A stretch of DNA of 64,000 bases, from the NCBI RefSeq assembly GCF_000154825.1, contig NZ_DS560015.1:211052-275051 (forward strand), read 5' to 3'. The notes under the pieces are model-generated. The model was not told the DNA's origin. It searched no databases and worked only from the letters and a program-made list of their open reading frames with translations. A program made the translations under genes and the position numbers. Shown one piece after another: positions 9,941 through 13,078 of the stretch (the stretch's first letter is position 1; every line of letters starts with the position of its first letter). Source of the DNA: Anaerofustis stercorihominis DSM 17244. GTDB taxonomy: Bacteria; Bacillota; Clostridia; Eubacteriales; Anaerofustaceae.

Positions 9941-11011
9941 CTACAGTTCTTTTAATCCTTGTTTTATAAGCGTATATGCTTCATATTCGATACGTCCTAT
10001 CTTTGTTATGATTTGACTTGCTCTTTCGAATATATCCTTATCGTTCAAAATATAGTCGATAAAAATATCACATAATTCTGTAAACTCTTTTCCGCTTTCT
10101 TTAAATAAACCGCTTGATCGTTTAAAGTATAAATTATCATATTCATTGCCGATTTCATCAAGTACTCTCCCAAACTTATCCCTTGAGCACATATATGTTA
10201 TGTCATCGGGTTCGTCTATTCCGAGAAGTCTGTTTGGTGTCTTTGGCACGCTTCCTAAGAAATTTATCATATTCAAAATCACTTTTCTTGTCTCTTTTTT
10301 ACCTATTTCTTCTTCCCATTTAGGCAGTTCATTCGCTAACTTCTTTATTCCTTTTACTCCCATGAAATTTGTCGGAGGATTTATGTATAAATTTGCTTTA
10401 TCTTCCAAACATTTTTTTATAATATATTTTTTATCCTTCGGTTTGTTCATCGTTATCTTGCAAATGGTGTTGGGTTTACATAGTCCCGGATACTCTGCGT
10501 TCATTCCAAGCAGGACATTTTTATATGATAACTCCTGGATATCTTTCCTTCCGCAGTCGTACAAATATATCTTTTCTTCTTTGTCGTCATATCCTATCAT
10601 CAAAAAATAATGAAAAGGTATGTGCTCTTTGTGATAAAGTTTAGGAAGATATTCCAAGTAGTACATGTCAAAAGCCCCTATCACAATGGGGTTACCGATG
10701 TCTATTTCCCTCTTTGCCTTTGTAAGTGCCGTCTCAGGTGTCCTGCATTCACTGAATTGATAATCAAACCCCACTATCGGGGCAAGGTATTTATACATTT
10801 GTTTTGTCCTGCCTTCGCCGAAAGATACCATCCTTTTTATGTCCGATTTATTGGTTTGAAGGTAGGTAAACCCGCAAAATCCCGCCATGGAAAAGAAAAA
10901 CTGATCGGGTATCTTTTCATTGGTTTTGTTCATGTATATGTCCTCGATACCGTTCCACATGCACTCATAATCGTCCAAATGGTGCTTTATCCCCGTTATT
11001 ATCTTCTTCAT
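9941..11011 (-). CDS. BtrH N-terminal / DUF4872-like C39-fold protein
   Basis: 356 aa from the ATG at 11011, chosen because AGGAGG (rc of about 11021-11027) is 9 nt upstream; a longer in-frame ORF starts at 11056 without a better site. The N-terminal 160 residues look like the BtrH N-terminal domain, a papain-like fold. Candidate catalytic residues are Cys17 (in HHLDDYECMW), His134 (FHYFLMIGYD) and Asp152 (YDCGR). BtrH transfers an acyl group from a carrier protein in butirosin synthesis, but no biosynthetic genes are nearby. The substrate is unknown. It is a single-gene transcription unit divergent from the retron-like module. Confidence 0.7.
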   Translation of the reverse strand: MKKIITGIKHHLDDYECMWNGIEDIYMNKTNEKIPDQFFFSMAGFCGFTYLQTNKSDIKRMVSFGEGRTKQMYKYLAPIVGFDYQFSECRTPETALTKAKREIDIGNPIVIGAFDMYYLEYLPKLYHKEHIPFHYFLMIGYDDKEEKIYLYDCGRKDIQELSYKNVLLGMNAEYPGLCKPNTICKITMNKPKDKKYIIKKCLEDKANLYINPPTNFMGVKGIKKLANELPKWEEEIGKKETRKVILNMINFLGSVPKTPNRLLGIDEPDDITYMCSRDKFGRVLDEIGNEYDNLYFKRSSGLFKESGKEFTELCDIFIDYILNDKDIFERASQIITKIGRIEYEAYTLIKQGLKEL

Positions 11012-11140
11012 AATCTTTATCCTCCTATGTTTTGGAACCATTATATTATCTGACATCGTGTCAGAGTCAATGGGGAGGGAAAGAATAGTGATATGAGGTA
11101 GTTTAATATTATTAAAAATATAATAATAAAATTTTATATT

Positions 11141-11168
11141 TTGTAAATTTCATATTATATGGTATAAT
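11141..11168 (+). promoter_or_regulatory. Promoter of the candidate retron RNA
   Basis: TTGTAA (11141-11146), a 16-nt spacer and TATAAT (11163-11168). Transcription would start near 11175, just before the hairpins described for the candidate ncRNA. Confidence 0.6.
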
Positions 11169-11174
11169 TTATTT

Positions 11175-11400
11175 GTTAGTATTTGTAGTCAGATTTTCTC
11201 CCATTATGGTTCATCTTTTGATGAATGACTCATTACTAGTTAGTGAGATTTTTATTGAACACTGTATTATTATGTTTATATATTAATATATAATATGAAA
11301 ATAATGATTATATAAGTAAAGTATAATAGTAATAGTGTGTATTATTTCCTTTAAGGGAGATTAGGTTAAAGAGTTGACAAATAGATATAAGACTACTTGT
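11175..11400 (+). ncRNA. Candidate retron msr-msd RNA
   Basis: Upstream of a reverse transcriptase gene, in the position of a retron ncRNA. Two adjacent short hairpins, TTCATC-TTTT-GATGAA (11210-11225) and CTCATTA-CTAGT-TAGTGAG (11229-11247), resemble an msr. They are followed by a long imperfect stem (11260-11273 with 11323-11337, one bulge and wobble pairs) resembling an msd. The ends GTAGTC (11185-11190) and GACTAC (11391-11396) are complementary, as a1/a2 arms would be. This is inference from pairing only; boundaries and the priming guanosine are not determined. Confidence 0.5.
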
Positions 11401-11469
11401 AACTTCTTTGTTTTATTGATTGGGAGACCTCAATAATTTTGAGGCAATAAATGCAAAGGAGGTGACATC

Positions 11470-11658
11470 ATGAAGGAGACAAAAAATAAAAAAGTTACAA
11501 ATAAAATTAATTTATTTTGTAACAATAATGTATATGTTAAAATAAATTTAAATTTTTATATTATTTTTATTTTAATAGTACTAACTATATCAACTGATTT
11601 ATTAAATGAGATAATTAATTTTGTCTACCAAATAATTATCTTTATTGGAAATCAGTAG
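11470..11658 (+). CDS. Small transmembrane peptide between candidate retron RNA and RT
   Basis: 62 aa, strong AAAGGAGGTGA ribosome site before ATG. A Lys-rich N-terminus is followed by one hydrophobic helix (residues about 30-43, FYIIFILIVLTIS) and a second hydrophobic stretch near the C-terminus (FVYQIIIFIG). No family recognised. Size, charge and topology resemble type I toxins and the small membrane effectors of some retrons. A short hairpin CCTCAA/TTGAGG (11428-11444) lies just upstream. It is 26 nt from the reverse transcriptase gene and probably cotranscribed with it, which suggests it is the effector or accessory protein. Confidence 0.65.
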   Translation: MKETKNKKVTNKINLFCNNNVYVKINLNFYIIFILIVLTISTDLLNEIINFVYQIIIFIGNQ

Positions 11659-11684
11659 TCAACTCGCCTTTTAAGAAAGAAATT

Positions 11685-12644
11685 ATGGAAATTCAAAAGT
11701 CACCTTTATATAAATTATCAAATAAAAATTATTTAAAATATCTTCTTAAAATTCCTGATAAAAAATTTTTCAAACAATCATATATCACTCAATTGATAAC
11801 ACCATATATAGATAATAAAAATGGTAAAAAAAGATTAATTGAGGTTCCCGATTTAGAATTAAAAAAAATACAATCTAGATTAAAAAATATACTCTCTCTA
11901 TTACAAATGCCCAATTATGTTTTTTCTGGTGTAAAGGGTAGATCATATTATGATAATGCCTATTTACATAAGGGAAATAAATATGTTTGTAAAATAGATT
12001 TAGAATCATTTTTCCCTAATATATCAAGAGAAAAGGTTTATTTATTTTTTTTAACATATTTTAAGTGTTCTTCTGATATAGCGTATATATTAACAAATTT
12101 AACTACTGTTGATTTGACTAGAACAAAAATAAAAAATAATAAAAAATTAGAAAAGTTTTTAGAATATAAAAATATATTTTGTAAGAATCATCTTATTTCT
12201 GGCTCTCCTGCAAGTCAACTTTTATCTTATTTAGTTAATAAAGATATGTTTGATGAAATATATAATTTAGCTAATAAAAATTCAATAAATGTATCAATTT
12301 ACGTAGATGATATTATTTTTTCTTCTTTTAATAAAATTTCATATGATTTTATTAAACAAATAAAAAGAATTATTAATAAGTATAATTATAATATATCAAA
12401 TTCTAAATTTAAAAGATATTTAAATGGATATCCTAAACGTATAACTGGTGTAATAATAGATAAAAACGGACAATTATCAATACCTAATTCGCTTAGACTG
12501 AAAATAATTAAAGAGTTTGAATATTTAAAAAGTCATCCAAATGATAGCAAATCGAAAATAAGATTAAGAGGATTAATCTTATCATCAAGACAAATTGAGC
12601 CAAATGCTTTTGTAGGTATTTATAAATATTTAAAAAAATTTTAG
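11685..12644 (+). CDS. Retron-type reverse transcriptase
   Basis: 319 aa, the normal size of retron RTs. The motifs are in the expected order: conserved N-terminal residues including NAYLHKG, the IDLESFFPNIS segment (motif A), SGSPASQLLSYL (motif B, replacing the common QGAPTSP), and YVDDI with catalytic Asp208-Asp209 (motif C). RITGVII corresponds to the VTG element of the retron Y region. The gene is very AT-rich, more so than the neighbouring housekeeping genes, consistent with transfer. The start ATG has only a weak AAGAAAG site, suggesting coupling to the upstream peptide gene. No endonuclease or maturase domain is present, which argues against a group II intron. Confidence 0.85.
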   Translation: MEIQKSPLYKLSNKNYLKYLLKIPDKKFFKQSYITQLITPYIDNKNGKKRLIEVPDLELKKIQSRLKNILSLLQMPNYVFSGVKGRSYYDNAYLHKGNKYVCKIDLESFFPNISREKVYLFFLTYFKCSSDIAYILTNLTTVDLTRTKIKNNKKLEKFLEYKNIFCKNHLISGSPASQLLSYLVNKDMFDEIYNLANKNSINVSIYVDDIIFSSFNKISYDFIKQIKRIINKYNYNISNSKFKRYLNGYPKRITGVIIDKNGQLSIPNSLRLKIIKEFEYLKSHPNDSKSKIRLRGLILSSRQIEPNAFVGIYKYLKKF

Positions 12645-12834: not shown

Positions 12835-12980
12835 ATTCTCTTAGGTAATCAGCATATGAAAGTTAAAAGTAAATTTAATATCTCTTTTAGCGAAGCTCTT
12901 AGGCACCGCGCCCAGCGGGGTCGTTAAATCCAATTTTTAGACAAGTAAAAATTGGCGGGGTTTTAGGGGCCGAGCCCCTT
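12835..12980 (-). repeat. Dispersed structured repeat, copy C (left half)
   Basis: On the minus strand: left palindrome (AGGGGC/GCCCCT, 12965-12979), variable hairpin CCAATTTTTA/TAAAAATTGG, CCGC-TGGGC-GCGG, AGC-TTC-GCT, and the AAAAGAGATATTAAA box. The right half is missing. The three-base stem here is AGC/GCT where other copies have GCC/GGC or GGC/GCC. Confidence 0.75.
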
Positions 12981-12992
12981 GAATTCTTTATA

Positions 12993-13078
12993 TGGTGCGG
13001 ATGATGGGACTTGAACCCATACGTCCGTGGGACACACGGCCCTCAACCGTGCCTGTCTGCCTATTCCAGCACATCCGC
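12993..13078 (-). tRNA. tRNA-Leu (GAG)
   Basis: 86 nt with encoded CCA. Acceptor GCGGATG/CATCCGC, a long variable arm as expected for leucine tRNA, anticodon loop TTGAGGG giving GAG, and TTCAAGT T-loop. Confidence 0.95.

Follow-up and report, generated by a model that had tools for sequence, protein, structure and literature searches.

A retron of the type VI lineage lacking an HTH gene, with covarying RNA pairings around the gene of a small membrane peptide

In the genome of Anaerofustis stercorihominis DSM 17244, the gene of a small hydrophobic peptide lies between a structured RNA and a reverse transcriptase (RT), which raises the question of what kind of retron this is and how the peptide might be tied to it. 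The window analysed here is a 64,000-nucleotide stretch of that genome, and the module occupies positions 11141–12644 of its forward strand, on which all of the elements of the module lie. The parts that the earlier note had read from the sequence are all present: a promoter-like site (TTGTAA-16-TATAAT, 11141–11168, by direct reading), an RNA region with two adjacent hairpins, a long stem and complementary ends, an open reading frame (ORF) of 62 residues (11470–11658), and an RT of 319 residues (11685–12644) with YVDD and RITG motifs. An AT-rich promoter-like sequence likewise precedes the ncRNA in relatives.

The RT is assigned to the retron type VI lineage by PADLOC models, alignments and a tree. 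Retron RT models predominate among its matches, the best being RT_VI (PDLC02952; E = 1.6e-74, 248.7 bits), with the next model at 3.8e-41, whereas a group II intron model gives only 20.5 bits, in keeping with the proposal that this is a retron RT rather than that of a group II intron. It contains NAYLH, YVDD and RITG, corresponding to the retron-class NAxxH, YxDD and VTG/ITG-type motifs, and shares with the RTs of two relatives, L014 and L046, an insertion of approximately 24 residues before the SGS motif. Group II, DGR or Abi origins of the RT are unsupported by the models (the tree was built without DGR or Abi RTs). In a passage of PMC8541194 that cites Mestre 2020, type VI is described as an RT, a DNA-binding protein and a small auxiliary protein; the PADLOC definition combines RT_VI with HTH_VI, as seen in plasmid and phage loci. 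The HTH_VI gene is absent from the locus, with no ORF in the 27-nucleotide gap between peptide and RT and no tblastn match. An HTH encoded elsewhere in the genome was considered as a partner in trans and rejected, the matches there being only partial (at most 54.8 bits, against 105–120 bits for real HTH_VI proteins). On sequence grounds, the module is a type VI-lineage retron without an HTH.

Relatives were found with a profile of three HTH-less RTs; a scan of genome contigs with a single RT gave no match, nor did a two-sequence RT profile against viral contigs. Nine genome loci (L099–L107, with 47–54% RT identity, of which L106 matches the L014 locus) and further viral contigs (L046, L047, L127 and L128) carry the same order of RNA, hydrophobic peptide (54–72 residues, with a strong Shine-Dalgarno sequence) and RT, without HTH. 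This order occurs in about ten distinct loci from Bacillota and phage contigs, all retaining the RNA as well as the peptide, which bears out the expectation that the three-part arrangement recurs elsewhere. The viral contig with the L046 retron is 159 kb long, and the retron's neighbours there are phosphoadenylylsulfate-reductase-like and DNA-methylase-like genes together with other small genes, so its carrier, judged from the contig, is a large phage or element.

In the maximum-likelihood tree, the HTH-less clade (support 91/86), taken together with two Campylobacterota loci, is the sister group of the type VI RTs that are accompanied by an HTH (96/87). An HTH-less group from Enterobacteriaceae (L034, L110 and L130) branches within those HTH-bearing loci and, by this topology, arose separately; its 75-residue peptide (L034, 1617–1844; L110, 2689–2916) belongs to phrog_35820, a family without an assigned function, and is accompanied by the same A, S1 and S2 elements, described below. 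A further arrangement occurs in the Campylobacterota loci (L114, 3004; L116, 2320), which also lack an HTH and where a similar hydrophobic ORF overlaps the RT start. On two different staphylococcal plasmids, a gene of the Fst family of type I toxins is found just 3′ of an HTH-bearing type VI retron (L026, 3368–3463; L027, 3389–3484).

The G+C content is 19–26% across the module versus 37–44% in the first kilobase past its right end. A tRNA-Leu gene lies at 12993–13078 on the reverse strand, and DNA similarity to a genome of the same genus (98% identity in the neighbouring protein) does not set in before 12991, at the tRNA's 3′ end; to the left of that position, nothing matches within the 7.5 kb compared. 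The module thus occupies an apparently variable region beside a tRNA gene and was probably acquired. Between retron and tRNA lies a palindrome-rich dispersed repeat of approximately 95 bp (12885–12992), with 24 matches in the genome. The divergent neighbour of the retron (9941–11056, reverse strand) encodes a BtrH N-terminal/DUF4872 protein (PF14399, E = 1e-20), a distant relative of the DarH acyltransferase and possibly a peptide-modification or acyl-transfer gene.

The structured ncRNA adjoining the RT is defined by a1/a2 complementarity, two msr hairpins, an msd stem and covarying elements; an Rfam search of the window gave no match to a retron family. The a1 arm, with the probable branch-point region (TATTTGTAGTC, 11180–11190), is complementary through GTAGTC (approximately 11185–11190) to GACTAC (approximately 11391–11396) at the start of the a2 arm (GACTACTTGTAA, 11391–11402, by direct reading). 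The a1/branch region aligns with TATAGC or CAGC in relatives, and the G in its TAG is a candidate branch G; the exact branch G and the RNA ends are inferred. Within the msr, element A (TCTCCCA, 11197–11203) is followed by the two adjacent hairpins (11209–11226 and 11229–11247, from the fold), whose equivalents in relatives were read by eye. The msd template (11260–11390, from the fold, with a putative boundary to a2) consists of a long AT-rich stem (approximately 11260–11339) followed by S1 (GGGAGA, 11355–11360) and X (GAGTTGAC, 11371–11378). Folded as DNA, the predicted msDNA shows nothing remarkable. Beyond a2, a leader stem (11403–11462, from the fold) contains an apical hairpin (11428–11444), the peptide's Shine-Dalgarno sequence (AAAGGAGG, 11455–11462) and S2 (11422–11427), which is identical to S1 and sits in a 9-nucleotide bulge with a predicted unpaired probability of 0.99. 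The partner of X, termed X′ (GTCAACTC, 11658–11665), lies 3′ of the peptide ORF, its first base being the last base of the stop codon.

By sequence, element A can pair with S1, in the 3′ portion of the msd, and also with S2, which immediately precedes the peptide's Shine-Dalgarno hairpin. The sequences of these elements differ between loci while their relationships are kept: A/S1/S2 read TCTCCC/GGGAGA/GGGAGA in the window, GCCCCA/TGGGGC/TGGGGC in L107, GTCGTC/GACGAC/GACGAC in L059 and GACTTCC/GGAAGTC/GGAAGTC in L099, and in the close relatives L034 and L110 all three have changed together (CCTCGC/GCGAGG/GCGAGG versus TCTCGC/GCGAGA/GCGAGA). The X/X′ pairs are likewise locus-specific: GAGTTGAC/GTCAACTC in the window, TAGTGTGG/CCACACTA in L014, TGTGCTGAGG/CCTCAGCACA in L099 and TGTACTGGTGT/ACACCAGTACA in L105, and, in HTH-bearing loci, ATCGGGAAGG/CCTTCCTGAT in L026 and AATTAATCAGGT/GCCTGATTAATT in L033. 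Pairs were counted by motif, because in a MAFFT alignment the S1 elements of the window and of L014 fail to line up.

A swap test, in which partners were exchanged between 28 loci over 20,000 permutations, gave a higher own-locus score than swapped score in 20,000 of 20,000 permutations for both the S1=S2 repeat and X:X′ (p = 5e-5 each), the delimitation of the regions after inspection by eye favouring this result somewhat and the kinship between loci working against it. By subset, the p values for S1=S2 and X:X′ are 1e-4 and 5e-5 for the clostridial loci and 4e-4 and 5e-5 for the remaining loci; for A:S2, p is 0.002 over 22 loci. A per-locus shuffle test of X:X′ is weak for single loci, so the analysis relies on the swap between loci. 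Most of the type VI loci examined have this A/S1/S2 and X/X′ layout; the match of A to S is imperfect in L101, in L032, L037, L026 and L033 the elements are weak or difficult to locate, and the enterobacterial HTH-less loci have no clear X′. This set of RNA pairings, which changes in step between loci, is what is new here.

The pairings are consistent with the predicted folds. The unconstrained fold of a 521-nucleotide transcript (11170–11690) contains A:S1, X:X′ and the leader stem together (z = −4.2), with A:S1 closing the msr–msd multiloop, and the leader folded alone (11403–11462) forms a single stem of −20.5 kcal/mol (z = −3.2). The fold z-scores of transcript and leader, the recurrence of the order in about ten distinct loci and the third-position bias of differences between clostridial peptide ORFs place the array of the module beyond chance. 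The leader architecture is alike in most other type VI loci: over 30 loci, the mean predicted unpaired probability of the peptide's Shine-Dalgarno sequence is 0.17, and S2 is mostly unpaired. Burial of the Shine-Dalgarno sequence in these models is by itself modest evidence, because that of the next gene, taken as a control, is partly buried too (mean 0.31). The earlier note needs one correction on the very strong ribosome site: the strong Shine-Dalgarno sequence is there, but folding predicts that a stem hides it.

The ORF that follows this site encodes, judged by hydropathy, a membrane peptide, a candidate toxin, with a basic N-terminus, one hydrophobic helix and an amphipathic C-terminus. 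It has no family in Pfam, NCBIfam, PADLOC or PHROGs; P2-like and enterobacterial peptides match unnamed PHROGs. BLAST finds no match between the window and L014 peptides, and their presumed homology rests on position and a weak alignment. In clostridial peptide pairs, ORF differences fall mostly at third codon positions, a pattern from which the enterobacterial pair L034/L110 departs. A small peptide had been thought unusual in this position, but one of 47–75 residues, with a basic N-terminus and a hydrophobic C-terminus, is encoded in all type VI loci whose upstream region is complete and can be read. Nor is the small protein new in itself, since type VI has been described with small auxiliary proteins; the unusual features are the lack of an HTH gene and the putative RNA switch around the peptide. 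Across the loci compared, the partner that never varies is the peptide, and the HTH appears dispensable, because it is absent in two separate clades and the peptide is found in all readable loci. The peptide is the best candidate for the effector and is probably a membrane toxin.

On balance we favour the reading that the output of this HTH-less, type VI-lineage retron is the translation of a small, probably toxic membrane peptide, switched by reverse transcription. A single transcript would bear the msr–msd, the peptide and the RT. Before processing, as predicted by folding and supported by covariation, this transcript would have A:S1 and X:X′ paired, the peptide's Shine-Dalgarno sequence held in a stem and S2 exposed. 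Once the RT has copied the msd to DNA and RNase H has removed the RNA template, S1 and X would be lost as RNA, so that either A in the msr or the msDNA segment complementary to S2 would be free to hold S2, and X′ would be released. The peptide leader could thereby respond to the production of msDNA. Other retrons suggest by analogy that the peptide would be off while msDNA is made and intact, and that a phage that blocks its synthesis, or degrades or coats it, would cause the peptide to be made and the membrane to be damaged; of all the steps, this direction of the switch is the most uncertain. A wider proposal falls a little short of what we would call probable: that conversion of an mRNA 5′ region to DNA acts as a reverse-transcription-driven riboswitch, altering the helices at a toxin ORF and thereby translating the presence or absence of msDNA into the synthesis of a membrane toxin, and that this is a general type VI mechanism with the peptide, not the HTH, as effector.

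The main rival, which we regard as unlikely, holds that the covarying elements are RT recognition or packaging signals or an autoregulatory operator, with the leader stem, A/S and X/X′ aiding RT binding or controlling RT translation, and that the peptide is not the regulated output. The position of X′, approximately 20 nucleotides 5′ of the RT (or HTH) start codon, would allow X:X′ to act on the downstream gene, and closure of the multiloop by A:S1 is what a pure ncRNA-folding element would be expected to do. However, S2 lies outside the a1/a2 borders, typically in a bulge beside the peptide's Shine-Dalgarno sequence, where a pure RT-binding element need not place a copy of S1. The peptide has diverged strongly: identity to the window copy is only 23–30%, while the RNA pairings persist, which points to control at the RNA level rather than to the conventional retron logic, in which RT–msDNA would physically bind and inhibit the peptide and the RNA folding around the ORF would be housekeeping. 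That logic has precedent in known retrons such as Retron-Kva2, which keep the effector in a complex of RT, ncRNA and msDNA (PMC13405049), but a hydrophobic transmembrane peptide would be an awkward partner for a soluble RNP, and we consider this explanation improbable. The suggestion that the peptide is held in check by RT–msDNA thus stays plausible, with the evidence favouring control of translation over protein capture. Decay of a type VI retron after loss of its HTH, leaving the peptide as a remnant of an inactive module, would account for the absence of a gene that belongs to the PADLOC definition and for the partial HTH_VI matches elsewhere in the genome; an undamaged RT with its catalytic motifs, RNA pairings that are likewise intact and a gene order kept across diverged lineages argue for maintenance and make decay very improbable.

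Read as a translational switch, the module can be set beside known systems. It shares with type VI retrons the RT family, a small basic and hydrophobic protein between the ncRNA and the downstream genes, and the A/S1/S2 and X/X′ layout, and differs from them in lacking the HTH, in the RT insertion, in a clearer transmembrane helix in the peptide and in its separate clade. As in type I toxin–antitoxin systems (reviewed in PMC8309996), a small hydrophobic peptide is encoded whose translation is apparently controlled by RNA pairing, but here there is no sign of a gene for a separate antisense RNA; the pairing lies within one predicted transcript, and the cis RNA is the RT template. Type IX Retron-Kva2 likewise has RT, msDNA and effector in one operon, and its msDNA loop has been proposed as a phage sensor (PMC13405049), whereas its effector is a HEPN ribonuclease in a protein complex, accompanied by a winged-helix protein. 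In the open-access literature searched, no mechanism or effector has been described for type VI retrons; the present data single out the peptide as their constant partner and give explicit base pairs. If the proposed switch is correct, this retron would act by controlling translation with its own template, in contrast to the protein-complex capture described for the retrons covered by that literature, and retrons would be linked to RNA-controlled membrane toxins.
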